Positions 31,467 to 58,377 of a stretch of DNA of 64,000 nt are shown piece after piece (the stretch's first letter is position 1; every line of letters starts with the position of its first letter). A model generated the notes under the pieces. The model was not told the DNA's origin. It ran no database searches and worked only from the letters and a program-made list of their open reading frames with translations. The translations under genes were made by a program, and so were the position numbers. Source of the stretch: an uncultured cyanobacterium (GTDB lineage Bacteria > Cyanobacteriota > Cyanobacteriia > Cyanobacteriales > FACHB-T130). Location: contig CAKZHE010000099.1 in NCBI GenBank assembly GCA_936920195.1, positions 1 to 64,000 on the forward strand. Reading direction: 5' to 3'.

Positions 31467-31486
31467 CGCTGCTCCTAGGGTTCCCC
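31467..31486 (-). promoter_or_regulatory. GGGGAACCCTAGGAGCAG box before the F-like gene
   Basis: The end of GGGAACCCTA is 23 bases before the ATG at 31453. The box overlaps the stop codon of the ribbon-helix-helix gene. Confidence 0.58.
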
Positions 31487-31666
31487 TTCAAGTTTCTTTA
31501 GGTAGAGGGCGATCGCTTGTCTGACGTGATAACTTCGCCCCTCCGGTAGGGCATCTAACCGCTTGACATCATCAATTCTTAATCGAACTCCGAACGCTTT
31601 AGTTTCCCCTGGATTATCGGGTGCTGAACGATCGGGCAAGTTTTTCAAGCTTTTGGGGTTTGGCAT
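31475..31666 (-). CDS. Ribbon-helix-helix regulator of the cargo region
   Basis: A 63-residue protein. The part TKAFGVRLRIDDVKRLDALP plus YHVRQAIALYLKKLEG is a ribbon-helix-helix (CopG/Arc-like) fold: one beta strand and two helices. It binds DNA as a dimer in known relatives. A 16-bp near-palindrome TCGATGTATATCTCGA lies 35 bases upstream, and close copies overlap two plus-strand promoters (31808, 32833). I infer that it represses itself and both cargo promoters. Confidence 0.75.
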   Translation of the reverse strand: MPNPKSLKNLPDRSAPDNPGETKAFGVRLRIDDVKRLDALPEGRSYHVRQAIALYLKKLEGEP

Positions 31667-31700
31667 GGGAATAAGTCTGTAGTTACCCCTCTATTTTGGT

Positions 31701-31716
31701 TCGATGTATATCTCGA
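31701..31716. promoter_or_regulatory. Putative operator TCGATGTATATCTCGA
   Basis: A near-palindromic 16-mer upstream of the ribbon-helix-helix gene. It differs by two pyrimidine changes from the two operators at 31808 and 32833. Confidence 0.65.
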
Positions 31717-31730
31717 TAGCAACTCAATGC

Positions 31731-31955
31731 TGGCACATATAAAAATGTGCCACTTATTTTAAAAATTTTCCAAAAATATTTCAAAATCGCCTCAAAACCT
31801 ATTGACATCGACGTATACCTCGATTTATATTATAAGTATGGAAAACAAAAGAGCCACCCGGACAAGCAGCGGGAAAGCCAAAACCCTAGAGGACTCACCG
31901 AGAGCCGAGGCTGGGAACCCTGAAGCCACCGAGTGTAGGGGCGAGAAAAAAATAT
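31731..31955. repeat. Direct repeat A: promoter plus structured leader
   Basis: About 220 bp, repeated with high identity at 32755-32981. It begins with a hairpin TGGCACAT/ATGTGCCA, then an AT-rich stretch, promoter with operator, and a GC-rich folded leader. Divergence between the copies is concentrated in one stem. Confidence 0.88.
31802..31832 (+). promoter_or_regulatory. Promoter with embedded operator (P1)
   Basis: TTGACA at 31802-31807 is a perfect -35. TTATAT/TATATT at 31825-31832 is a plausible -10. The operator TCGACGTATACCTCGA fills the spacer (31808-31823), so a bound repressor would block RNA polymerase. Confidence 0.7.
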
Positions 31956-31970
31956 CAGTCCTGTAAATGA
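31840..31970 (+). ncRNA. Putative structured RNA leader, copy 1
   Basis: CCCTA (31884) pairs with TAGGG (31936). Inside are a CTC-ACC-GAG hairpin and a GGCT/AGCC stem with loop GGGAACCCTGA. Upstream, CCCG pairs with CGGG. It ends in ATCAGTCCTGTAAATGA just before the gene at 31981. A possible 43-codon frame from 31838 is not conserved in copy 2, whereas the stems are. No known RNA family recognised. Confidence 0.5.
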
Positions 31971-31980
31971 GGAAAAAACC

Positions 31981-32280
31981 ATGAGACGACGCATAAACCT
32001 AGATCGCTTCACCCCTGTAGCGGCAGACCTTACAGACCTTCTTGCGACGTTTGGAGAAGCTCAAATTGGCGACGACAAAGATTATTACGATCGCCGTTCT
32101 GGTGATGAGCAACTTGCCAAACTTCAGGCCGAACTTGCGGAGGCAATGGAACAAGAACGCCACCTCAGAGAAGCCCAACTTCAAAGAATTGAAGCCCAGC
32201 AACAAAGAATTCAAGAAGCACGGCAATTGGCAAAAGAGTTGCAAGAAATCGAAGAACGCATAAACAACTTAATCCCGTAA
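31981..32280 (+). CDS. Small coiled-coil protein of unknown function
   Basis: A 99-residue protein. From about residue 42 it is an uninterrupted Gln/Glu/Leu-rich heptad region (QRIEAQQQRIQEARQLAKEL). GGAAAAAACC precedes the ATG. It is first in the plus-strand cargo transcript from P1. Confidence 0.65.
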   Translation: MRRRINLDRFTPVAADLTDLLATFGEAQIGDDKDYYDRRSGDEQLAKLQAELAEAMEQERHLREAQLQRIEAQQQRIQEARQLAKELQEIEERINNLIP

Positions 32281-32289
32281 AAGCGGATC

Positions 32290-32343
32290 GGCAGGGTGCA
32301 AACCCCTGCCAAACATTAGCCGGACACACTACACAATCCCGGC
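32290..32343 (+). other. Repeated leader hairpin, copy 1
   Basis: GGCAGGG and CCCTGCC flank a small loop, followed by AAACATTAGCCGG and a downstream CCCGGC. The same 50-base block is at 33204-33255. Both lie immediately before small cargo genes. Confidence 0.55.
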
Positions 32344-32357
32344 GCAATGGAGACAAC

Positions 32358-32684
32358 ATGAACGCATTAAAAGCAACGATGATCCTCGGATACTGTCAAG
32401 CTCAACAACAGGCAGGATACTGGGAATGGAATGGTAGCGAAGGTTGGGAGTTTGATGAAAAGGTTCTCTCCGAAGATGGGAAGGGGGGCTACGTTTTCGC
32501 TGGAATGATTGTTGGCATGATGATCAAACTCCTTGACGAGGGGTTCCTACTCCGAGGCACTTACTGCTCAGACGATGGAAATTACGAAGACAAAGGCGAG
32601 TTTGAATTTGAGATCGAGAGCCTCAGCCACCTGAACGTCCTATTGGATGACGCGACAAGCGGCAAATTCTTGATGCAGCAATAG
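32358..32684 (+). CDS. Hypothetical protein
   Basis: A 108-residue acidic protein with aromatic-rich YWEWNGSEGWEFDEKV near its N-terminus. No family recognised and no membrane segment. Downstream of a conserved hairpin leader, in the same transcript as the coiled-coil gene. Confidence 0.6.
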   Translation: MNALKATMILGYCQAQQQAGYWEWNGSEGWEFDEKVLSEDGKGGYVFAGMIVGMMIKLLDEGFLLRGTYCSDDGNYEDKGEFEFEIESLSHLNVLLDDATSGKFLMQQ

Positions 32685-32754
32685 GCTATCTAAAAACGCG
32701 ATAGCGCTAGCGCGCACGCAGGGCTTCGCCGCACCTCGGAATCGGACATAGAAA

Positions 32755-32981
32755 GTGGCACACCTAGTAATGTGCCACTTATTTTGGGAATTTTCCAAAA
32801 ATATTTTAAAATTGCCTCAAAACCTATTGACATCGACGTATACCTCGACTTATATTATAAGTATGGAAAACGAAAGAGCCACCCGGACAAGCAGCGGGAA
32901 AGCCAAAACCCTAAAAGACTTACTGAGTCTGAGGCTGGGAACCCTGAAGCCACCGAGTGTAGGGGCGAGAAAAAATATCAG
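32755..32981. repeat. Direct repeat B: promoter plus structured leader
   Basis: Second copy of 31731-31955, about 1 kb downstream. It starts with the hairpin GTGGCACA/TGTGCCAC. It duplicates the regulatory unit, not a gene. Confidence 0.88.
32827..32857 (+). promoter_or_regulatory. Promoter with embedded operator (P2)
   Basis: TTGACA at 32827-32832, the operator TCGACGTATACCTCGA at 32833-32848, then TTATATTATAAG as -10 region. Identical in design to P1. Confidence 0.7.
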
Positions 32982-32990
32982 CCACACGGC
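32865..32990 (+). ncRNA. Putative structured RNA leader, copy 2
   Basis: CCCTA (32909) and TAGGG (32960) are kept. The first internal stem has changed to GACT/AGTC while still pairing, and the GGCT/AGCC stem-loop is identical to copy 1. The reading frame of copy 1 is lost. This pattern favours RNA structure over coding. Confidence 0.5.
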
Positions 32991-33049
32991 TGACTAAGGG
33001 GGGAGTGCGGATAGGTTCACCCACCTGCCAGGGGCGGAAACATTAGAAA

Positions 33050-33172
33050 CGCGAACCCACCAAGAAAACGAGCGGGGGAAGAGAAACCATTAAAGACTAC
33101 TGGACACAAGGCTGGAAACCTTGCGCGGGGTAGTTCGCCGACCAACACCTCCTCTTAATCAGTCCTGTAAAT
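33050..33172 (+). ncRNA. Putative structured RNA leader, diverged copy 3
   Basis: Sequence order resembles copies 1 and 2 (ACCCACC, AGCGGGGGAA, then a GACTAC/GTAGTT outer stem and a CAAGG/CCTTG inner stem). It ends with the same ATCAGTCCTGTAAATGA as copy 1. Together with copy 2 it fills most of the 580-base gap between genes at 32684 and 33268. Confidence 0.42.
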
Positions 33173-33203
33173 GACGCTTTTATCAATCGTAACCAAGCGA
33201 GCC

Positions 33204-33255
33204 GCAGGGTGCAAACCCCTGCCAAACATTAGCCGGATCACTTCACACCCCCGGC
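33204..33255 (+). other. Repeated leader hairpin, copy 2
   Basis: Same block as 32290-32343: GCAGGG/CCCTGC hairpin, AAACATTAGCCGG, CCCCGGC, ending 12 bases before the ATG at 33268. Confidence 0.55.
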
Positions 33256-33267
33256 AAGGAAAAAGCA

Positions 33268-33636
33268 ATGATTACCTATATCGAAGAAGAAGACTTCAAT
33301 TACGAAGCGCTCGATGAACAAATTGACGAAGCGAACGAAGACAAAGATGTGGACAGCGACGTTTACGAGCTGCTGGAAGAATTCTTCCCTGAGACTCGCA
33401 ATAGCAACCGGAAATTAACAGTCGGCTTCCTAGAACTTCCTCTCGGTCACATCCAGGTGATTCCGCATTTCTGGATCGCAGAATTCTACATCTTCAAAAA
33501 TTATTACGCCCCGGATGAGGAATCAAGCGCTATCAAAAAAGGCTATTTCACCTCATGGGAAGATATGGATGCCCTAATTGACAAACTCACAGACGGAGAT
33601 TTTGAAGCCTTTGAAAAGGCCGTCAATGCTCGTTGA
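33268..33636 (+). CDS. Hypothetical acidic protein
   Basis: A 122-residue very acidic protein; the first 50 residues contain many Asp and Glu (DEANEDKDVDSDVYELLEEF). Strong acidity could reflect DNA mimicry, as in anti-restriction proteins, but this is speculation. A GGAAAAAG ribosome-binding site precedes the ATG. Confidence 0.6.
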   Translation: MITYIEEEDFNYEALDEQIDEANEDKDVDSDVYELLEEFFPETRNSNRKLTVGFLELPLGHIQVIPHFWIAEFYIFKNYYAPDEESSAIKKGYFTSWEDMDALIDKLTDGDFEAFEKAVNAR

Positions 33637-33733: not shown

Positions 33734-34339
33734 ATGCTATTACAAGCTCTCTTCAATCAAGTTGACATTCAAATCGCCAACGTGCAATCCGAAATTGCCA
33801 AACTGCAACAACAACTTAGCGATTTGCAAACCTATCGCCAAAATCTGCAAAGCGTCGAACAAGCCTGCGAAAGCGCACTGAGCCAAATTGATGTCGCGCT
33901 GTTGATGCTGAACAATGTCAATGCCTCTGAAATCGCCACATTCAAAGCCGCTGTTGATGCCAAATTTGGAACTGAAGCCATTGCCCAACTTCCCGCTGCA
34001 CCGGAAGTTGAAACCGAAGTTGAAACCGTGCAACCTGACGCTCCCCAAGCTCCTGCTATCGACGTTGATGTAGTTTCCGAAGTTGACCCCGGACAAACCG
34101 ACACTCCCCAAGCTCCTGCTATCGACGTTGATGTTGTTGATGAACAGCCTGCCAGCAATGGCCACAAAAATGGTAGTGCCGATACTTTTACTGCCAATGA
34201 ATTGCTGGGTTTCACCTACAAAGAATTGCAAAAGCTCGCCAAAGCTAAAGGCGTAAACTGCAAGGGCATGAAACAAGGCGCGATCGCCACAGCCTTGGAT
34301 GGGAAAGTTACCCAAGCCGATCTTGCTGACCTGAATTAA
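33734..34339 (+). CDS. Coiled-coil protein with SAP/Rho-N-like C-terminus
   Basis: A 201-residue protein. Residues 1-60 form a coiled coil. The middle is an acidic linker with a duplicated PQAPAIDVDVV segment encoded by a near-perfect 29-base direct repeat. Residues 155-195 (FTYKELQKLAKAKGVNCKG) resemble SAP/HeH or Rho-N nucleic-acid-binding helices. The ATG at 33734 follows AGGAG. Confidence 0.65.
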   Translation: MLLQALFNQVDIQIANVQSEIAKLQQQLSDLQTYRQNLQSVEQACESALSQIDVALLMLNNVNASEIATFKAAVDAKFGTEAIAQLPAAPEVETEVETVQPDAPQAPAIDVDVVSEVDPGQTDTPQAPAIDVDVVDEQPASNGHKNGSADTFTANELLGFTYKELQKLAKAKGVNCKGMKQGAIATALDGKVTQADLADLN

Positions 34340-35041: not shown

Positions 35042-36055
35042 ATGACACTGCTAAAACATCGGATTTCCGCGCACCTTTTCCAAAATTTCCGGGAATTTTT
35101 AGTCCGGAACTTTGATTTTGATACCGCCAATCAAGCCGTACCGACCTATCTGCTCGACCAAATCGAAATCGCTGCGGCTGACTTTGCCGAAGGCGAAGGG
35201 ATTCGGCTGATTGACCGGGAGAGCCTGCTAGCCATCAAAGATGCCCTGGAAATGTCCTACACCGATGGCATCACGGCGATTACGGAAGCTTATCTACAGC
35301 CCGATGACAGCATCACTGGCAAATTTATAGATAAAGTTAATCCCAAAATCACCAAACGGCTTGAATTTAAACTAACTGATGAAGAATTATCCTATACCCT
35401 AGTCAACGACCAAGAACTAGCCAATTTTAGCGAGGAAGATTGGCTAGATTTTGCCGCCGCAACTAAACCCAAAAATTGCAAAAAAGGCATTCCTTGTAAG
35501 GGAAGTTGCATTGCTGTAGGTAAGCAATGTAAAGATTCATCTTCAGCGCAGAAAACATCAAACAAAAAAGCTGTCACGACAGCGAAAAAAGCTACTACTG
35601 GGAAGAAGGCTGCTGTTCCGGATACCTCTGGCAACGCCAATCAAGAATCGGCATCTCAAAGTCAAGCCGAATCTCAAAGTCAAGATGATCGGTCAACAAA
35701 AATAAAACAACACTTAAGACCACAATCAATTGTTCACGGCAAAATACATTCTGATATGCTCACACCAGGTTCAGTCCAGATTTCTCCAGAAAGAGAGCAG
35801 TTTATCCGGGATCATATCAATAAATGGGGGGCGAATTTAATCCCTGTAGTTGTTCGCACCGATCCAAAGGACGAATTTAAATATGAAGTAATTTCCGGGC
35901 ATGATATTGCCTATGTCGCCCAAAAAATGGGCAAAGACTTTGTGCAAGCTTCGCATTACAACCTCAATGATGAAGAAGCTGCGGCTATGCGTGATGAAAT
36001 AGCCCTATTACAAAACGGCGGAGTACCAAAAACTAGCAAAAAGAAAACAAAATAA
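35042..36055 (+). CDS. Modular cargo protein with ParB-like C-terminal domain
   Basis: A 337-residue protein. Residues 10-41 (HLFQNFREFLVRNFDFDTAN, then VPTYLLDQI) match a segment of the phage protease/scaffold. Residues 60-140 are the core shared by all five modular proteins (SYTDGITAI, ITGKFIDKV). A C-x5-C-x3-C-x6-C motif lies at 146-163. After a low-complexity Lys/Thr/Ser linker, residues 220-330 resemble a ParB/Srx-type domain (YEVISGHDIAYVAQKMG). Its first 165 residues are nearly identical to those of the next gene. It could be an injected effector; the activity is unproven. Confidence 0.72.
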   Translation: MTLLKHRISAHLFQNFREFLVRNFDFDTANQAVPTYLLDQIEIAAADFAEGEGIRLIDRESLLAIKDALEMSYTDGITAITEAYLQPDDSITGKFIDKVNPKITKRLEFKLTDEELSYTLVNDQELANFSEEDWLDFAAATKPKNCKKGIPCKGSCIAVGKQCKDSSSAQKTSNKKAVTTAKKATTGKKAAVPDTSGNANQESASQSQAESQSQDDRSTKIKQHLRPQSIVHGKIHSDMLTPGSVQISPEREQFIRDHINKWGANLIPVVVRTDPKDEFKYEVISGHDIAYVAQKMGKDFVQASHYNLNDEEAAAMRDEIALLQNGGVPKTSKKKTK

Positions 36056-36069
36056 GACTTTTTTAGCTT

Positions 36070-37470
36070 ATGAAATTGCTAAAACATCGGATTTCCGCGC
36101 ACCTTTTCCAAAATTTCCGGGAATTTTTAGTCCGCAACTTTGATTTTGATACCGCCAATCAAGCCGTACCGACCTATCTGCTCGACCAAATCGAAATCGC
36201 TGCGGCTAACTTTGCTGAAGGCGAAGCGATTCGGCTGATTGACCGGGAGAGCCTGCTAGCCATCAAAGATGCCCTGGAAATGTCCTACACCGATGGCATC
36301 ACGGCGATTACGGAAGCTTATCTACAGCCCGATGACAGCATCACTGGCAAATTTATAGATAAAGTTAATCCCAAAATCACCAAACGGCTTGAATTTAAAC
36401 TAACTGATGAAGAATTATCCTATATCCTAGTTAACGACCGAGAACTAGCCAATTTTAGCGAGGAAGATTGGCTAGACTTTGCCGCCGCAACTAAACCCAA
36501 AAACTGCAAAAAAGGCATTCCCTGTGGGGGAAGTTGCATTGCCGCAAGTAAGCAATGTAGGATTTCATCTTTGGCGCAGCAAACATCAAATAAAAAAGCT
36601 ATTGCCACAGCCCAAGAAAATACTAAATCGCTCAATAAAACGCCAGACACTGTTTTGACGATAAAAGCTGGTATTGAGAAAGTTGACGCAAAATACAAAG
36701 TTAAATTAAGTGCATTAGAAGCCCAGAGAAATGAAAAAATAAAACAAATAGATCAAGCATTCCATCTTCCATTAAAAGACTTTGAGAAGGTAATGGACGA
36801 TTTTAGAAAAGCAGATAAAAAATATTCTGATCTTATTGAGAAAGCCGAACTTGAAAAAGGAAAACTAATCGTCAAGGAATTAAAGAAAACCTATGAACAG
36901 CCAAGGATGCAGCAGCATCATGGTATGTCAGAAGCAGAAGATATGTGGTCTGTAAAAATCGGGAATACAAGTTTTCATGGAACCGAAGAGTTTTCAGCAG
37001 ATCATACACTTGTAAAAACGGTTTCAGCGCTTTTGCAGCAAAAAGATCTACCAGCACACTTCATTGACAGCACGAAAAATGTTTTTTTCAGCAAACAATT
37101 AAACAAAGATGACCATTACTGGCAAGTGAAGTATAATAATCCAACGCATATCAGTGGTGCCACTGGCGGCGACAGAAATATTGTATTTTACAATACCCAA
37201 AACGGTAGCAGAATTGATGAATACATCCACGAAACGGGACACAATTTTGCCACAAAGAAGTATGGTGGGGTAGATCCGCCAAAATTGAGCGATTATGGAA
37301 AGGCAATAAAATCGCCTCACCCTTCAGAATATGGGCGTAAAAGCAAGGCAGAGGATTTCGCGGAAACTGCTAGAATGTATTTTTTAGATCCTAAGCGACT
37401 AAAAGAAGATGCTCCAGAGCGATATCACGTTTTTGAAAAAATGATGAAGGATGAAAACTATGCAGGATGA
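36070..37470 (+). CDS. Modular cargo protein with zincin-like metallopeptidase domain
   Basis: A 466-residue paralogue of the preceding gene. The N-terminal scaffold-like segment, shared core and four-cysteine motif (CKKGIPCGGSCIAASKQC) are nearly the same. The rest differs completely: a coiled coil at about 200-290, then a domain with HETGH at 387-391 and a downstream EDFAETA stretch near 428 that could supply the third zinc ligand. The near-identical 5' halves of neighbouring genes point to duplication with C-terminal replacement. Confidence 0.75.
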   Translation: MKLLKHRISAHLFQNFREFLVRNFDFDTANQAVPTYLLDQIEIAAANFAEGEAIRLIDRESLLAIKDALEMSYTDGITAITEAYLQPDDSITGKFIDKVNPKITKRLEFKLTDEELSYILVNDRELANFSEEDWLDFAAATKPKNCKKGIPCGGSCIAASKQCRISSLAQQTSNKKAIATAQENTKSLNKTPDTVLTIKAGIEKVDAKYKVKLSALEAQRNEKIKQIDQAFHLPLKDFEKVMDDFRKADKKYSDLIEKAELEKGKLIVKELKKTYEQPRMQQHHGMSEAEDMWSVKIGNTSFHGTEEFSADHTLVKTVSALLQQKDLPAHFIDSTKNVFFSKQLNKDDHYWQVKYNNPTHISGATGGDRNIVFYNTQNGSRIDEYIHETGHNFATKKYGGVDPPKLSDYGKAIKSPHPSEYGRKSKAEDFAETARMYFLDPKRLKEDAPERYHVFEKMMKDENYAG

Positions 37471-37884: not shown

Positions 37885-39069
37885 TTAGTTTGAACCGTAC
37901 TTCTTAAGTAATTCGTCTGCACTTTTAGTGTCTAATTGATAAACTAGAGTCTTGCCTGGAACTGGTTTAAAGCCCATCTTTTCATAAAATGGTGCTGAAT
38001 CTGGCAGTGCCTCTAGCACCACCTTGCCTTTATATCCCTGCTGTTTGGAAATTTGAACAGCCTGGATTAAACCTTCCGTTCCAGCCCCTCGAACTGATTT
38101 ATCAGATTTGGTATTGTTCCAAGGCGCTGTAGCCAAATATTCAACGTAAACATGGTCTTTTTTGACTTTATACTCCATTGCTCCCTGAATATTACCTTTT
38201 TCATCATACAGCCCCACTCGTTTAGTTCCTGGTGCTACACCCCTTGTGGTAAATTCTTCAGTTATTGACATAGATGCGTGCAGTCGCTTGTCATCTATGC
38301 CTAAGTATTGATTATTATTTTTAACGGCTTTTTTTTCTTCTTTTGCCGCTAGCTTTCGCATGGTAGCAGCTTCAGCAGCATACTCCTTTGCCATTTCATC
38401 TCTGGTAAAAGTTTTACCTTTAGCTTTGTAATTTTTGTTTGGAGGGTCATTCAATATTTTTTTCGAGTTTTGCTCGGCAATATCTGCTTGTTTGTTTATC
38501 TGGCGAATCCTGATGACATCACTCATCTGTTTGCGTTCGGCTTCCCACTGGGTTAAATCCTTTTGCAACTGTGGTTCATTATCGTTGATTTTGAATTTGG
38601 TTTTTATTTCTGGCTTTACTATCTTAGCTGGTTGAACGGGTGTCTGAGGAGTTGCAGTTTTAGACTTGGCTTTAGTTACCTTTTGGACTGACTGCTTCTC
38701 TGCATCATCCAATCCATCCTTGCACTGCCGATTTTTAGCGATGCAAGTCCCTTTGCAAGGAGTTCCTTTGGTACAGTTTTTAGTCTTACTAGCAGCAAAG
38801 TCAATGTCAATCTCAGCGAGTTCAACATCTTCACCATTGACCAAGCCATAGCTAACATCGTTCTGGGTGATGGTAAATTGATAGCGCTTAGTTAGCTGCT
38901 CGCTAACTTTATCTTCAAATATCCCAGTGATATTGTCCCCATCTGTTGATGCTTCGGGAATAGCTGTAATGCCATCGGTGTAGCGGACTTCTAGCAGTTT
39001 CCGCAGTTCCAATAAATCTTCTGGTGAATTGATTTTTGTCCCTTCGTTAAAGTTCGGGGATTGCTCTAG
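37885..39069 (-). CDS. Modular cargo protein with GNAT acetyltransferase domain (probable frameshift continuation)
   Basis: The first in-frame ATG is at 39012, but homology to the gene at 39416 (GTKINSPEDLLELRK) extends upstream of it, up to an A10 tract where the frame joins the gene at 39066. The protein has the shared core, the CTKGTPCKGTCIAKNRQC motif, a linker, a helical region, and a C-terminal GNAT fold (residues 250-375 from the ATG) with VEYLATAPWN, a RGAGTEGLI acetyl-CoA loop and FYEKMGFK. A fusion by -1 shift would have about 510 residues. Confidence 0.72.
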   Translation of the reverse strand, partial: LEQSPNFNEGTKINSPEDLLELRKLLEVRYTDGITAIPEASTDGDNITGIFEDKVSEQLTKRYQFTITQNDVSYGLVNGEDVELAEIDIDFAASKTKNCTKGTPCKGTCIAKNRQCKDGLDDAEKQSVQKVTKAKSKTATPQTPVQPAKIVKPEIKTKFKINDNEPQLQKDLTQWEAERKQMSDVIRIRQINKQADIAEQNSKKILNDPPNKNYKAKGKTFTRDEMAKEYAAEAATMRKLAAKEEKKAVKNNNQYLGIDDKRLHASMSITEEFTTRGVAPGTKRVGLYDEKGNIQGAMEYKVKKDHVYVEYLATAPWNNTKSDKSVRGAGTEGLIQAVQISKQQGYKGKVVLEALPDSAPFYEKMGFKPVPGKTLVYQLDTKSADELLKKYGSN

Positions 39070-39080
39070 TTTTTTTTTTC
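39066..39080 (-). other. Candidate programmed -1 frameshift site
   Basis: Ten consecutive A residues on the coding strand end in the canonical heptamer A AAA AAC, in phase with the upstream gene and followed at once by TAG. Slippage by -1 enters the open frame of the GNAT-tailed protein. Transcriptional slippage on the A tract would also work. Confidence 0.6.
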
Positions 39081-39416
39081 TGCACTAGCGCGAAGCACAT
39101 CCCCTGTCATCCCTGGAATCCCCAGGGAATATTTTTTGACCAATTCCTCCCCTTCAATGGTGAAAAGACCCCATTTTTTCACTCTGGCGATCCGTTTCAG
39201 AGCGCAATCTAGATCAATGGGGACGATCCGCTCAGGATTTATTTTGTGACCAAAACAACCTGCCCCACTGGATAATTCGGACTTCAATTTTAGGAAAGTA
39301 CGAAGATCTCCATCAATCAGTTTTAAAGGCGCTGCCTTCAAACTTTCATCGCTTTCCAACTTGATGAGCAGAGCATCATCTATACCAGTTTCGGGAACTA
39401 TTTGGTACACCAGCAT
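39066..39416 (-). CDS. Small phage protein, probable N-terminal module of the GNAT effector
   Basis: A 116-residue protein of unknown family, overlapping the upstream gene by TAATG. Content such as LKLIDGDLRTFLKLKSEL and PERIVPIDLDCALKRI suggests a compact alpha/beta domain. It ends in the slippery A tract. It may be made alone and as the head of a 510-residue fusion. Confidence 0.65.
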   Translation of the reverse strand: MLVYQIVPETGIDDALLIKLESDESLKAAPLKLIDGDLRTFLKLKSELSSGAGCFGHKINPERIVPIDLDCALKRIARVKKWGLFTIEGEELVKKYSLGIPGMTGDVLRASAEKKN

Positions 39417-41314
39417 TATTCTTTTCCTCCTCTAATTACACCCAGAACGTAGGCAAAATGTTGCGGGTCTTTGGCTGCTAACTCTGCCATATCTTTAGCG
39501 CTATGAAACCTTTCAAAGCCAGTAGTTACAACCTCTGTGGCAATATTTTCGTCATCATCTCTTTGATATTTTTTGCCGACGTATGGATCTATGAATTTAT
39601 CAGGATAGGCAATTTCATTGTCGTCAAACCCTCCGTTTTTATCCAAAACCTTTAATTTTTTAGGTTTTCCTGTGGCACGGGATTCGATAAATGCTTGCGA
39701 ATGTTCGCCAATGTCGGAATCCGCAAATTCAATATGGTGGGACAACTCGTGCATTAATGATTCCTTGTCCGCATATCTGCCAAGAAATATCTTTCTAGAA
39801 TATTCACTGGTGCAAGATCTGTCATCGTCCCGGTTTTCAATAGCTGCTACATTTTCAAAGCCCTGCCCATTGGTTAGCTTAATATATTCTTTCAGGTCTT
39901 GCTCTATGTTGGGATGTTTAGCTTTTACATTTTTATCGATTTCAAGTTTGGCTATCATTTGGTCGGCTTCATCATCAGAAATAATTGAATTCCGCTTCAG
40001 CTTATCCATGAAATCTTTATGGGGTTTCTCCAATGCCTCCGTTTCTTTGTCTAATTTGGCTTTTCTTTTTTGAAATGCAGGGCTATTTTCCATTTCTGCC
40101 CTAGCTTTATCCTCAAAGTTATCGGCGATTTGTTGCATTTTCTGTTGTTGAGCCGATATTCTATTCATTATTGGCTGCACTTGCTGAGAATATTCTTGCT
40201 GGGTCATTTTCCCTGCCACAAAATCATCATGCAAAGGCTTCTGCACTGCCCTCAATTTGGCAACCTCTTGCTTGGCTGCTTGATAGGCAGGTTCAGTCCC
40301 TGCAAGTTTATGTTTGTGAAGTAAAGCTGCACTATCCAACTCCGAATTATAGTTAATCCGGGCATCCTCCAATTTCTCCCATTTTTTAAAGTGTCCTTTG
40401 GTTTGTTGCAGATATTCAGCCGCAACAACTTTACCATTGTCTATCTGCTCTTGATAATTTTTGGCCTTTTGAGAACGAGCGGTGTTAGTAGCTGGTTGAA
40501 CAGGTGGTTGAGTAGCTGGTTGAACGGGTGTCTGAGCAGTTTTAGACTTGGCTTTAGTTATCTTTTGGACTGACTGCTTTTCTGCATCACCCAATCCATC
40601 CTTACACTGCCGATTTTTAGCGATGCAAGTCCCTTTGCAAGGAGTTCCTTTGGTGCAGTTTTTAGCCTTCCCAGCGGCAAAGTCAATGTCAATCTCAGCG
40701 AGTTCAACATCTTCGCCATTGACCAAGCCATAGCTAACATCGTTCTGGGTGATGGTGAATTGATAGCGCTTGGTCAGCTGCTCGCTAACTTTATCTTCAA
40801 ATATCCCCGTGATATTGTCCCCATCTGTTGATGCTTCGGGAATAGCTGTAATGCCATCGGTGTAGCGGACTTCTAGCAGTTTCCGCAGTTCCAATAAATC
40901 TTCTGGCGAATTGATTTTTGTCCCTATCGCCTGCGGCGACGCTGCGCTATCGGCAAACTCTTCCGCAGTCTCAGTTTCCTGGATTATTTCAAAACGTCCT
41001 GCTGCTTCAGCAACCACCAAAGCTTTTCCCATCAAAGTTGTAAAATCTTGGGGAGATAAAGCAGGATAAAGATTAAAGAGTTGTTCGCGAAATTCCTCAA
41101 AACTGCCTGCTTCTTCCAGTAGGTCTTCCACAGGTTTAAGCCAACTAGCCATTAACTGGGGCGTTTGGTTTATTGCCTTTTCAATGTAAGAATTTATGGA
41201 CTCTCCTTCTGCAAATTGGAATGAGCTAGGCAATTTGGCTAACTCAGCACCAGGGGCAATCAAGAGTCCCCCTATTTCATCTTCTAGGTCGGCTAATTCT
41301 TCTAAAAGTGACAT
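39416..41314 (-). CDS. Modular cargo protein: portal-tail-like N-terminus, zincin C-terminus
   Basis: 632 residues. Residues 30-115 (SYIEKAINQTPQLMASWLKP, LLEEAGSFEEFREQLFNLYP, ALVVAEAAGRFEI) look like the C-terminal region of DUF935 portals, as I recall that family. Residues 140-220 are the shared core, followed by the four-cysteine motif near residue 230. A Lys/Gln-rich coiled coil covers 270-450. The C-terminus has HELSHH near 521, a zincin zinc site, and a later ENIATEVVTTG stretch. Two similar domain types in opposite-strand genes suggest exchange. Confidence 0.75.
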   Translation of the reverse strand: MSLLEELADLEDEIGGLLIAPGAELAKLPSSFQFAEGESINSYIEKAINQTPQLMASWLKPVEDLLEEAGSFEEFREQLFNLYPALSPQDFTTLMGKALVVAEAAGRFEIIQETETAEEFADSAASPQAIGTKINSPEDLLELRKLLEVRYTDGITAIPEASTDGDNITGIFEDKVSEQLTKRYQFTITQNDVSYGLVNGEDVELAEIDIDFAAGKAKNCTKGTPCKGTCIAKNRQCKDGLGDAEKQSVQKITKAKSKTAQTPVQPATQPPVQPATNTARSQKAKNYQEQIDNGKVVAAEYLQQTKGHFKKWEKLEDARINYNSELDSAALLHKHKLAGTEPAYQAAKQEVAKLRAVQKPLHDDFVAGKMTQQEYSQQVQPIMNRISAQQQKMQQIADNFEDKARAEMENSPAFQKRKAKLDKETEALEKPHKDFMDKLKRNSIISDDEADQMIAKLEIDKNVKAKHPNIEQDLKEYIKLTNGQGFENVAAIENRDDDRSCTSEYSRKIFLGRYADKESLMHELSHHIEFADSDIGEHSQAFIESRATGKPKKLKVLDKNGGFDDNEIAYPDKFIDPYVGKKYQRDDDENIATEVVTTGFERFHSAKDMAELAAKDPQHFAYVLGVIRGGKE

Positions 41315-41317
41315 TTT

Positions 41318-42892
41318 TTAATCTCCTATGTTTTTAATGAAATTAGTGGCATCGCTAGGGGAGAGTTCGTAAACTTTGCAGCCCCCCCATTGTTCTGTTC
41401 CTATTACTTTAAAACCAATTTTTTCATAGAATTTTTCAGATCCAGGAAGGGCAACTAACCTAACCCTGCCTCCATAGCCTTTTTTCTGACTTTCTTTGAC
41501 AACTTCAGCAATCATTCTAGTCCCAGCACCCTTTACTTTGTTTGGCGCATTAGCTCCAGGAAGGTTATAAGGTGATGTTGCCAAATACTCGATTTCTAAA
41601 TGCTTTTCATCTTTATGCCCTGATAAATATTCTAGGTCGTAATTATCATTTTTCTTGGTTCTATTTTTAACACTAGCTACAGCTTGAATATTGCCATTGC
41701 TGTCTTGAACTGCTCTTTTTTTAAAGTCATCTTCCGCCGTCATTGCATTGAGAACCCAGCGATTATCGATCAATGCTCCTTCTTCCGGCGTAACACTTTT
41801 TCCACGCATTTGTTTATCGTCTAATTCTTCAGTGCCGAGATTCCCGTTGTGAGCATCTTCCCATTCATAAAGCGTATCTTGAATTTTCTCAAGGCCAGTT
41901 GGCGATCTGCCAGAAACAACCGTCATCGGCGGGACTGTTTTAGTCGGCGTTGTAGTTGTATTGGTTGACTTAGCCGCAGTAGCAGCCTTTTTGGTTGCTG
42001 CCTTTGTAGTGGGTGTGCCATTGATTCGACATATTTTCTTATTTGAAATACAAGTATTGCCGCAAGATATGCCTTTTTTACATTGCTTGGGTTTCACTCC
42101 AGCAAAGTCTAGAAATTCTTCTTCCCAGTCGCTTTCCGTGAAGTTTTGTAGGGCTTCTGGATTAATTATTTGATAGGCAATATCGCCATCGGAGGAAATT
42201 TCAAAGCTGAGGCGTTTGCTAACTTTTGGGGTAACTTGATCGACAAAAATTCCAGAGAAACTGTCATCGTCGTGTAAGTAAGCTTCTGGAATTGAACTAA
42301 TCCCGTCTTTGTAGGCGGTTTCCAGGATGGCTTTTAGTTGGAGAAGTGTTGCTCGGTCGGTAATGCGATTTTTACTTTCTGCAAAGTCTGCTTTTTTAAA
42401 GGGTAGTAAATCGCTGATATTGACTGCCACGATGCCACCAAAAAACTCGCTGGGCATTTCTTTGAGGTAGGCTGCGCGAGCCGCATCAATATCGGTATAG
42501 CCGAGCATAAATTTGTATTCATCAAAGTCGCCATCGTCAGCGGACATTTGAGAAATTCGGAAAAGTTGGTTACTGCCTGCCCCATCTAGGGTTTCTCTGG
42601 AGATGTAGCAGTCCAAGGCTTCGCCATCGGCTCCAATGTGGCGGCGGATATGTCCGTACCCAGATCTAAGTTTTTTGGAGTTCCGACGACCAGGAAAGCG
42701 GACTTGCCCTGGCAGGTATTCCACTCCAATATCTAGCCCTTGCCATTTCAGCACTCGGTCAATGATTGCGCCAAAGTCGAGGGTGTTAGCAATCGTTTTT
42801 TCTGCCCAAAGTTCGGCAGTGCTATCGCTAAAATCCAACGGGCGGTTGAGTCTATAAATTTGAACTAATTTTTTGACTAATTCCAGTTTCAT
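41318..42892 (-). CDS. Modular cargo protein with InPase-like and GNAT domains
   Basis: 524 residues from the ATG at 42892, which follows the portal stop by two bases. Residues 45-95 (LPGQVRFPGRRNSKKLRSGY, then IRRHIGADGEALDCYIS) resemble the InPase-type domain described in phage polyvalent proteins. The shared core, the CKKGISCGNTCISNKKIC motif and a Thr/Lys-rich linker follow. The C-terminal GNAT domain has IEYLATSPYNLPG, VKGAGTRMI and FYEKIGFK. It is the first of the minus-strand modular genes. Confidence 0.75.
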   Translation of the reverse strand: MKLELVKKLVQIYRLNRPLDFSDSTAELWAEKTIANTLDFGAIIDRVLKWQGLDIGVEYLPGQVRFPGRRNSKKLRSGYGHIRRHIGADGEALDCYISRETLDGAGSNQLFRISQMSADDGDFDEYKFMLGYTDIDAARAAYLKEMPSEFFGGIVAVNISDLLPFKKADFAESKNRITDRATLLQLKAILETAYKDGISSIPEAYLHDDDSFSGIFVDQVTPKVSKRLSFEISSDGDIAYQIINPEALQNFTESDWEEEFLDFAGVKPKQCKKGISCGNTCISNKKICRINGTPTTKAATKKAATAAKSTNTTTTPTKTVPPMTVVSGRSPTGLEKIQDTLYEWEDAHNGNLGTEELDDKQMRGKSVTPEEGALIDNRWVLNAMTAEDDFKKRAVQDSNGNIQAVASVKNRTKKNDNYDLEYLSGHKDEKHLEIEYLATSPYNLPGANAPNKVKGAGTRMIAEVVKESQKKGYGGRVRLVALPGSEKFYEKIGFKVIGTEQWGGCKVYELSPSDATNFIKNIGD

Positions 42893-42894
42893 AA

Positions 42895-44337
42895 TTAACT
42901 TAAACTCAATATCCGAGTGCAAATACCATTCATTTCTGCGAAGGATACCTGGGGGGCAACCCATTCCAAAAAGGCGATCGCATCAATTTCCTCCTCCATC
43001 TCCGGCGGCGTTTCTTCTGGGGGTGGTTGTTCAACCTCTGGGGCTTGATCTGCGGGTTGTTCTGGAGCAGCAGCGCCACTATTTTTCAGGAATTCTTCAT
43101 CACTGGTTGCGCCATCCCCTTCGGCCTGCTCTGCGACTTCGTAATGGTCGCCATAAATTTCGGCGATCGCTTCTTTTTTGAGCTTCCACCCCATGTCAAA
43201 TAGCGTCTTATCCCGATTGGCTCTGGCGTTTAAATCTTCTACCTCGTCAAACTTGCGCCATATCTGCGGCGGCTTGGCTTCGGGCAGATTCAATTCGGCA
43301 ATCCAGCGGCACAAAGTTCGATTTAGCGTTCCTGATAGTAAATCAGCATCCGCTTTGACTAAATCTTGGCGAACATCGTTGTGGGTTTGGGAAGCGGCAT
43401 AACTCCCGCGATCGCCAACTTGAGTGGTCAAAGTCTGCCCTAAAACTGCTTTGCTGATTTCGGCATCCATATAGGTAGCCAAGGATTCGTAGCAGCTGAT
43501 GGAACCGCTGCGACTGGCTTCCAAAAGCTCAATAATCATCCCTTCCGGGATAATTACCCCGGCATCATGGGCGATCGCATCCAAGGCATCTAGCAGCGTC
43601 CTTTTCTGCTCCTGGGATGCTCCATTGGGATATTTCCCCACAGCGGTAGGGCTGGCAAATTTGTCAACAAATGCCAGCCAATACTTGATATCCTGGCGCT
43701 TGAAAAATACTGGGAACCAGAGCGATCGCCCCAAACCAATCCCAAAGGGATTACCATCTTTTGAGCCGAAAGAATGACAGATGAACTTGCGGGGATACTT
43801 CGCCAGCGATTCCCCGTTGTAGATATTTTCAGGGGTCAGCAACCGCAACTCATAGCCATCTTCGCCCAGTCCGAAGGTAAAGCGCTGCTGGTTTTTCGGG
43901 CGAATTTCAGTGGCGACAAATTCCTTGCCGTCTTGCCCCCACATAATTTCAGCAATAGCATTGCCTTTCAGCAGGGCATCCAATAAGTTTAAGCAGGCAA
44001 AATCAAAATCCCAAGCAACAATTTGCTGCGATGCACAGCCCAAGTTTTTAAGTTGGTCTGTCACCATGTCTGCTGCTTTTTGGTCGATAGCGTCGTCTCC
44101 CCCGGCTTTAACCTCCCATTCCTTGCCAATTACTGCTAATTGGCGAGTATTCAAAACAGAGGAGCAATGACCATCTTTCAGCAAGTTGTCGTAAAGTGCA
44201 TATTGCCCCTGTCCTCGGTTTCGCAACACTTCATCGGGTTGCATAGCCAAGGCTCCATCACCCCAAACGAACTGAGTGATGTCCCGCTTGATGCTGGCTA
44301 TTTCTTCAAGAAAAGCTTTAGGTGCAGGCAAGGGCAA
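42895..44337 (-). CDS. Portal protein (Mu gp29-like, DUF935)
   Basis: 480 residues with TTG start at 44337. It has the DUF935 pattern DGHCSSVLNTRQLAVIGKEW, a WDFDFACLNLLDALLKGNAI stretch, GKYPNGASQEQKRTLLDALD and GDRGSYAASQTHNDVRQDLV. The portal forms the DNA entry ring. Its C-terminus is shorter than I expect: the helical end of the family seems to be missing and to occur instead at the start of the gene at 39416. A GGGAACCCTA box lies 22 bases upstream. Confidence 0.9.
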   Translation of the reverse strand: MPLPAPKAFLEEIASIKRDITQFVWGDGALAMQPDEVLRNRGQGQYALYDNLLKDGHCSSVLNTRQLAVIGKEWEVKAGGDDAIDQKAADMVTDQLKNLGCASQQIVAWDFDFACLNLLDALLKGNAIAEIMWGQDGKEFVATEIRPKNQQRFTFGLGEDGYELRLLTPENIYNGESLAKYPRKFICHSFGSKDGNPFGIGLGRSLWFPVFFKRQDIKYWLAFVDKFASPTAVGKYPNGASQEQKRTLLDALDAIAHDAGVIIPEGMIIELLEASRSGSISCYESLATYMDAEISKAVLGQTLTTQVGDRGSYAASQTHNDVRQDLVKADADLLSGTLNRTLCRWIAELNLPEAKPPQIWRKFDEVEDLNARANRDKTLFDMGWKLKKEAIAEIYGDHYEVAEQAEGDGATSDEEFLKNSGAAAPEQPADQAPEVEQPPPEETPPEMEEEIDAIAFLEWVAPQVSFAEMNGICTRILSLS

Positions 44338-58062: not shown

Positions 58063-58136
58063 TTCCCAGTTCCCAGTTCCCAGTTCCCAGTTCCCAGTTC
58101 CCAGTTCCCAGTTCCCAGTTCCCAGTTCCCAGTTCC
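58063..58136. repeat. Tandem CCCAGTT repeat
   Basis: About ten copies of the heptamer CCCAGTT head to tail. An open frame through it codes for repeated GNWELGT and is an artefact of the repeat. Confidence 0.9.
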
Positions 58137-58377
58137 CCCAGTATATGACTGCTTTTTTGCTATTGACTACTCTGATCCAAACCCTGTTCTCCCAGTAATT
58201 AAACATTAGGCTTGAATCTAAATACGGCACTTAACGACATCTTCGGTTTGTACGAAGATGCAAACAAAAACTCTAACCGTTCCAACTTGCAAGTCCTGTT
58301 AGGGTATTGTCCAACCCAGCTTTTGAATGTCTAACCGTTACCTAAAATAGCTGGTTGACTGGAGCGATCGTGAGCTA

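Follow-up and report, generated by a model that had tools for sequence, protein, structure and literature searches.

A candidate structured leader RNA of a putative Mu-like cyanobacterial prophage and its relatives in other mobile elements

Small genes in a cyanobacterial contig are preceded by similar, apparently foldable sequences, and the question raised by this locus is whether these sequences are RNAs selected for their structure and, if so, on what such RNAs would act. The window, by which we mean the whole 64,000-nucleotide stretch of DNA analysed here, is part of contig C99 of a 5.7 Mb source genome. A sequence-only reading had described three related, folded RNA leaders in it.

Three copies in and near a small-gene operon

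The gene content of its open reading frames suggests that the window holds a Mu-like prophage. As read from these frames, structural genes occupy the minus strand at 24–31 kb, and transposition and early genes lie at 44–57 kb. A plus-strand operon starting at 31.8 kb is placed between the two blocks and diverges from the gene of a 63-aa protein (31475–31666, minus strand). By eye this protein resembles ribbon-helix-helix proteins; it has no Pfam or PHROG match, and it is likely the repressor of the divergent operon. The first gene behind leader 1 (31981–32280, plus strand) encodes 99 aa that look coiled coil-like, with a single weak PHROG match to an Rz-like spanin (E 0.0016). For the 122-aa product of the gene behind copies 2 and 3 (33268–33636, plus strand) we found no family. 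The gene at 33734–34339 (plus strand) encodes a 201-aa protein with a coiled coil and a small conserved C-terminal segment.

Other repeats occur in the same stretch of DNA. A second intergenic repeat, GGCAGGGTGCAAACCCCTGCCAAACATTAGCCGGA, is present at 32286–32324 and 33199–33237 in hairpin-capable copies that are 95% alike, with a weaker third copy (score 28) 5' of leader copy 3. Together with a CCGGC downstream, this repeat could form a second hairpin directly ahead of the ribosome sites that serve the genes at 32358 and 33268. Further along, five proteins encoded at 35042–37470 (plus strand) and 37885–42964 (minus strand) have similar N-terminal domains and differing C-terminal parts by eye; the two plus-strand genes have 300 nt in common at 98%, and one of the five proteins weakly matches M90 peptidases (E 0.0012). 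CCCAGTT units are repeated in tandem at 58076–58137.

Leader copy 1 (31852–31946, plus strand) was delimited by a structured-model match and covariation, and copy 2, with its fold intact, lies at 32877–32970 (plus strand). The repeat that joins them extends beyond the 5' end of the RNA to take in the promoter (D2, 172 nt at 91%; D5, 45 nt at 100%). Judged by this alignment, the two copies are a duplication of a promoter region of ~107 nt together with the leader. Over the 121-nt leader they differ by seven substitutions and two one-base gaps. Six of the seven substitutions fall in the region of a hairpin, P4, which is kept in both copies. The motif outside P4 carries no substitution; upstream, 10 of 107 bases differ.

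Each of these two leaders is preceded by a sigma-70-like promoter. At leader 1 (31802–31831, plus strand) it consists of TTGACA (31802–31807), an 18-nt spacer and TATATT (31826–31831), which makes 11 of 12 consensus bases, a score reached by none of 200 shuffles; its −10 element ends 20 nt 5' of the motif. The consensus scan found the same hexamers and spacing at leader 2 (32827–32856, plus strand). Reading of the sequence and a palindrome search place the palindrome TCGACGTATACCTCGA (31808–31823) between −35 and −10 of leader 1, where it is likely an operator; leader 2 also has a palindrome between its hexamers. A similar palindrome, TCGATGTATATCTCGA (31701–31716), can be read upstream of the divergent small gene.

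The third copy (about 33050–33174, plus strand) is of a different kind. Its local score against copy 2 is 55, which none of 2000 dinucleotide shuffles reach, and 2888 background stretches of the window score at most 42, copy 3's own place excepted. By these scores copy 3 is truly related to copy 2, but it is decayed. The structured model R2, described below, gave no match to it at E≤1 across 436 kb, and no promoter like that of copies 1 and 2 was seen 5' of it. The proposal of three folded leaders thus holds for two intact copies, and for the third in its sequence but not in its fold. The 17-nt tail ATCAGTCCTGTAAATGA, which two copies were said to have in common, is indeed present at 31954–31970 (plus strand), directly 5' of the first gene's start region, and again at 33158. 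Copy 3 starts ~80 nt downstream of copy 2, inside a stretch of 181 bases (32977–33157) flanked on both sides by ATCAG. Copy 3 may have arrived as part of an insertion; alternatively, the 181-base stretch may have been lost from copy 1. The ends of this part of the window (32977–33162), CTGACTAAGGGGGG and CCTCCTCTTAATCAG, are nearly complementary and form a long helix in folding.

We considered whether a short peptide, beginning MENKRATRTSSGKAKTL, might be the selected product. Copies 1 and 2 have an ATG at the expected transcription start, and their first 17 codons are nearly identical, but the one-base gap in P4 puts the two out of frame, copy 3 lacks an ATG and has a TAG ahead of the aligned frame, and what the other members described below have in common is base pairing, not a frame. 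The break of the reading frame between copies 1 and 2 had been pointed out before, and, as to the conserved-peptide alternative, the frame is not kept among the copies. We regard a selected peptide as extremely improbable.

Homologues and covariation

Folded singly, the three copies are not clearly more stable than shuffled sequences (z +0.80, −0.96 and +1.69). Since no copy clearly beats its shuffles, fold stability alone would not reveal the element, and the case for a structured RNA was made by comparison. A model of sequence alone, R1, was built from the three window copies and run over 388 genomes of the same order. It gave matches at E≤0.1 in 15 genomes, the source genome included; the best of the others (E 4.8e-6 to 2.6e-4) were in G733, G805, G796 (two places), G740, G847 and G136. 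All 17 places listed outside the source genome were read by eye. Three of them (L108, L110, L117) are weak members and one (L112) is doubtful; six (L107, L109, L111, L113, L114, L118) were set aside as coding or chance matches.

A structured model, R2, was then built from seven members outside the window. With no window sequence in it, R2 recovers copy 2 with 68.7 bits (E 5.6e-17) and copy 1 with 55.2 bits (E 4.6e-13) among 436 kb from 46 sources, in a reverse test that is partly circular, as the members that went into R2 had themselves come from searches with the window-derived model or with a pattern based on it. When run over 378 genomes of the order, R2 gave 37 at E≤0.1, which is about the number expected by chance, and genomes were counted only above 27 bits and if convincing by eye. 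Besides the source genome, the clear ones are G740, G796, G733, G805, G847 and G136 (at least 77 bits). Weaker matches in G795, G446, G897 (two places) and G432 look right by eye and have a shorter 3' part. Two further candidates, G747 (28.5 bits) and G113 (27.5 bits), do not enter the count, since they look decayed.

Plain nucleotide searches did not recover these relatives. Blastn of the leader found no relative in 148 related genomes, where only short chance matches appeared, or elsewhere in the source genome. The region had none among phages, and blastn with the relatives against phages and plasmids gave nothing, its Leisingera matches being unrelated.

The members have a common fold: a hairpin, P1, with the loop G(G)ACAAGNAG, a helix P2, a CCC/GGG pairing, the hairpin P4 and a short P5. 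In order, the motif reads GCC, a 4-bp hairpin around the P1 loop, AAGGN..AAACCCTA, a hairpin mostly with a TACG loop, N'CC, TGGGA(A/G), CNN ... NNG and YGAGA, and this pattern was read by eye at the best R1 places in all six genomes, including both in G796. The comparative fold of copy 1 (plus strand) places P1 at 31857–31860/31870–31873, P2 at 31877–31879/31909–31911, P3, a predicted pseudoknot, at 31884–31886/31913–31915, P4 at 31891–31896/31902–31906, and P5 at 31918–31920/31939–31941.

Across nine sequences, 96.8% of the cells in the 14 pairs of P1, P2, P3 and P4 are paired, and 8 of the 14 pairs change on both sides. We counted 27 double-change cells where shuffling gave a mean of 8.0, and none of 500 shuffles matched the observed number. 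Structures slid by 1–3 columns scored at most 0.081, against 0.595 for the actual structure. A repeat with a plain MAFFT alignment gave 96.6% paired cells and 18 double-change cells (0/500 shuffles). The nine rows represent about seven lineages, with L103/L104 and L101/L106 as close pairs; the pair counts did not include L116, whose core is the same as that of L104, or the duplicates L125, L126 and L139. Alignment A5 was fitted to the model; alignment A6 was not, but in it the core was joined to the 3' end. In P5, 85.2% of the cells pair and two of three pairs show double changes, the third being unpaired in four of nine sequences in the MAFFT alignment. The CCC/GGG of P3 is invariant among the members and is therefore neither supported nor contradicted by covariation; the pseudoknot is predicted.

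According to these comparisons the RNA is conserved at the level of base pairs in P1, P2, P4 and in part P5, and the ~95-nt element is almost certainly a conserved structured RNA. This is what the sequence-only reading had argued from the compensatory change of the first inner stem from CTC/GAG to GACT/AGTC: that stem is P4, a hairpin with double changes across the nine sequences. Selection on structure is supported by covariation in further homologues, the point on which that reading could have failed, and a sequence-only model of the three copies did lead to clear relatives, both in viral contigs and in further genomes of the order. Its outer stem CCCTA/TAGGG did not survive the comparison. 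Only 71.1% of its cells pair, with no double change in nine sequences and one of its five pairs failing in 7/9, and the GGG of TAGGG pairs better with the CCC at 31918–31920, as in P5.

These results also bear on the reading in which the copies have no function, a segment with a promoter region having simply been duplicated not long ago and its pairing being due to chance. The duplication of copies 1 and 2 together with the promoter would fit it, as would single-sequence folding that is no better than shuffles. Against it stand homologues across genomes that carry double changes and were found from both sides, as well as the conservation of isolated RNA islands on two chromosomes, described below. 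Mere duplication is contradicted by the covariation in other genomes, unless the alignments are wrong, and we rejected it as very improbable.

Phages, plasmids and chromosomes that carry the RNA

A scan of viral contigs for a partial pattern yielded 20 contigs, of which four carry the RNA (L125, L126, L139 and L128). The first three do not differ from one another in their overlaps, nor from G805 over the stretch they share with it. The RNA of L125 and L139 has large genes on one side and a run of further genes on the other; the former are presumably replication genes and the latter presumably terminase and capsid genes. In a second set of 25 contigs the same four were the only clear matches, and the remaining 21 reached E 0.007 at best. 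Further contig scans added no members, with one weak match (E 0.005) among eight loci, and the best R1 result in earlier pattern scans of 27 loci was a single match at E 0.012. The exact tail has one match in the viral contigs, within an apparent coding repeat. Scanning the viral contigs for the MuF protein gave L022 as the best locus, a GC-rich Mu-like element in which reading by eye found no such leader region; the corresponding scan of genome contigs confirmed none.

Blastn from one short-type member led to Nostoc and Trichormus plasmids and then to 14 plasmid records with a cousin of the RNA, from Nostoc, Trichormus, Aulosira and Calothrix. In Trichormus variabilis ATCC 29413 the cousin is located near 298.5–298.7 kb on plasmid A. 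We compared 11 loci from these records. The plasmid type retains GCC, P1 and the P1 loop, and the hairpins behind these differ. At the 11 loci 98.2% of the cells pair, with five double-change cells against 0.8 in shuffles. In each of the 11 stretches, which span 3 to 8 kb and were searched on both strands, the best match of copy 1 falls exactly at the cousin site, and its score is reached by at most 2/100 shuffles in ten of them and by 50/100 in L210. On four plasmid loci R2 gave weak matches (15.8 to 22.4 bits, E 0.0012 to 0.098). We take the P1 half of the plasmid cousin to be homologous to the main type. By these matches, then, the RNA is one that recurs in other cyanobacterial phages and plasmids.

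A helix-turn-helix regulator is annotated close upstream of the cousin in L203–L206, L208, L210 and L211; an insertion sequence is found there in L209 and a hypothetical protein in L212–L214. Across L203–L206 and L208–L214 the P1-type RNA mostly adjoins a regulator gene, in two cases also near CyRepA1. CyRepA1 is a replication gene; 1–3 terminators stand behind the RNA in the large Nostocales plasmids. In L170–L172 there is a divergent gene of the Cro/C1-type HTH. An RNA component of a cargo system had been suggested as well; we read the neighbourhoods of the phage and plasmid relatives and saw no cargo-like proteins beside the RNA, so that this suggestion found no support.

On two chromosomes the RNA stands alone. 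In G733 and G136 it lies beside an orthologous gene, followed by a T-run and preceded by a weak promoter score (7/12). The two islands are 84.7% identical over 131 nt, and the surrounding non-coding DNA does not align. As a separate observation, L173 and L176, from two genera, hold the RNA island at chromosomal places that are orthologous, with a T-run behind it; there the RNA may have turned into a gene of the host.

The 201-aa protein encoded at 33734–34339 has homologues behind the RNA in L125, L126, L139 and L174 (phmmer, 2.4e-11) and in L170 and L172 (iterated profile, 8e-26 and 1.6e-24), with a partial one in L171. A direct search of the 388 genomes found the protein in only two, the source genome included. 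Since the family alignment shows a C-terminal segment common to its members, the match is not one of coiled coil alone. This co-occurrence favours a reading in which the leader senses a metabolite, or binds a protein of the element such as the 33734–34339 protein, and so frees or hides the ribosome site. The conserved unpaired stretches (the loop GACAAGNAG, AAACCCTA and YGAGA) resemble binding pockets, and the ribosome site could be covered by a ATCTCCTT/AAGGAGAT pairing in L102 or by a TCCT/AGGA pairing behind copy 1. However, such ribosome-site hairpins are not common to the members, no member of the family was found next to the RNA in G847, G136 or G733 or in the Nostocales plasmids, and the family's profile has no convincing relative among solved structures (one coiled-coil match, E 0.021). 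We consider a sensing or protein-binding leader quite unlikely. Operons with relatives of the 33734–34339 family at L059, L069 and three G206 loci showed no RNA in searches with R1 (E≤10) or R2 (E≤1). At L069 (source genome, contig C324, 1–4000), a second locus with a homologue of the protein (64% identical), several small genes each stand behind a near-identical promoter-like stretch, TTGACTGGAGCAATG...GTATAGAC, and the RNA is absent.

Possible action and comparison with known RNAs

Promoter-like sites were scored across the loci. The best −10 element ends 19–20 nt 5' of the motif at copies 1 and 2, L174, L128 and L177, and 45–112 nt 5' of it at L170–L172, L175 and most plasmid loci. Compared with 200 shuffles, the site is strong at copy 1 and MS1 (reached by 0 shuffles), C057G (1), SO36 (3) and C057A (4), fair at L170, L171, L174, L175, L177 and UHCC (6 to 17), and weak at Tvar (27) and A53789 (29). 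It is indistinguishable from shuffles (at least 70/200) at L128, L173, L176, L178, L179, L181, C052, Aulo, Calo1 and Calo2.

Intrinsic terminators separate the RNA from the first longer gene at all 11 plasmid loci in a fine scan, one to three at each. A control scan, which used coarser steps than the first, found them at 8/11 loci against 26/660 shuffles. At 6 of the 11 loci a terminator lies 146–151 nt behind the motif. Between 90 and 430 nt behind the RNA, none was found at the 12 main-type and short-type loci (25/720 shuffles).

The RNA probably acts in cis as a leader, as its place behind the promoter is constant, an operon stands behind it, and it was duplicated together with the promoter. 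That its target is elongation or termination of transcription is conjecture, to which we give less than even odds; it is favoured by the position of the RNA near the transcript start in several elements and by the terminators of the plasmid cousins. Among types of role, that of an antitermination leader or riboregulator is tentatively favoured. We give about even credence to the reading that joins these parts, namely that the structured RNA is the 5' leader of the small-gene operon of the prophage and acts in cis on its expression, most likely on elongation or termination. The repressor encoded by the divergent small gene would control the leader promoter; once transcription starts, the RNA would fold behind RNA polymerase, and the folded RNA would act in cis on expression of the operon, with antitermination or attenuation as the most likely mode. 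In the window antitermination would have no visible target, because no terminator was found 90–430 nt behind the RNA. The missing window terminators and the stand-alone chromosomal copies speak against an elongation role, or for more than one use of the RNA.

The same terminators can be read differently, as the ends of a free-standing small RNA that would act in trans, by base pairing or in a ribonucleoprotein, and would only incidentally lie upstream of an operon. A terminator at the distance common to six plasmid loci could simply end such an RNA, and the chromosomal copies of G733 and G136, with their T-run and conserved without their flanks, fit a free RNA gene. However, the window and L174 have no terminator between RNA and gene, the close transcription start and the same downstream gene family recur, and the second or third terminator at several plasmid loci exceeds what a small RNA needs. 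We regard an RNA acting in trans as rather unlikely. Returning to the cis-acting leader, its most far-reaching form would be a new class of leader RNA in prophages, viruses and large Nostocales plasmids that renders the host polymerase termination-resistant without a phage protein; this we regard as rather unlikely.

Searches with Rfam 15 returned no match at gathering score in the window and none at E≤5 in 31700–33300; ten relatives gave 11 weak matches, all of them below gathering score and away from the RNA. The motif was not found described in Rfam 15 or in a search of the open-access literature, which also turned up no RNA-only antiterminator in cyanobacteria. A conserved RNA without an Rfam 15 match would be a common control feature next to a repressor in unrelated cyanobacterial mobile elements. 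Should it control elongation, these elements would bring along an RNA device of their own for passing into expression; should it instead be a free RNA, it would be a candidate for regulating the host or competing elements. In either case the RNA model can be used by annotators.

Among known cyanobacterial RNAs, the glnA (RF01739) and Downstream-peptide (RF01704) RNAs are 5' leaders according to the part of the source at hand (PMC2864571), and the latter, standing before short unknown genes, is similar in setting (PMC2864571). The conserved sequence here is different, and neither family matched the window region or the ten relatives at E≤5. The consulted section of the same source places the manA, wcaG and PhotoRC-II motifs in cyanophages, manA and wcaG in T4-like phages with metabolic genes (PMC2864571). 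They resemble the present RNA as structured RNAs of cyanobacterial phages, but no Rfam match links them to it. The c4 antisense RNA is likewise a phage RNA and has a role in a phage control region. Its family, RF01695, is listed for Proteobacteria and their phages in the portion of the source available (PMC2864571), and neither the window nor the ten relatives have a match to it. A small-RNA review, in the excerpt at hand, states that the cyanobacterial antisense RNAs found to date are chromosomal (PMC6202907). HK022 appears in the reference list only of another paper, as far as the accessible part of that paper goes (PMC6391919).

The present loci can be set beside the put leaders of that phage. 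A promoter-like site lies 19–20 nt upstream of the motif in five loci and 45–112 nt in others, so that the RNA may stand at the 5' end of a transcript; terminators were found downstream at 11/11 plasmid loci, and none within 430 nt in the window. HK022 put is a structured 5' RNA of phage transcripts that lies close to a strong promoter and before a long operon. Leaders of the put type are factor-independent and let polymerase read through terminators downstream. The leader described here has a predicted pseudoknotted core, whereas put consists of two simple hairpins; the phylum is a different one, and no Rfam relation was found. The likeness to put would lie in the arrangement, a structured RNA near a promoter-like site in front of a phage operon.
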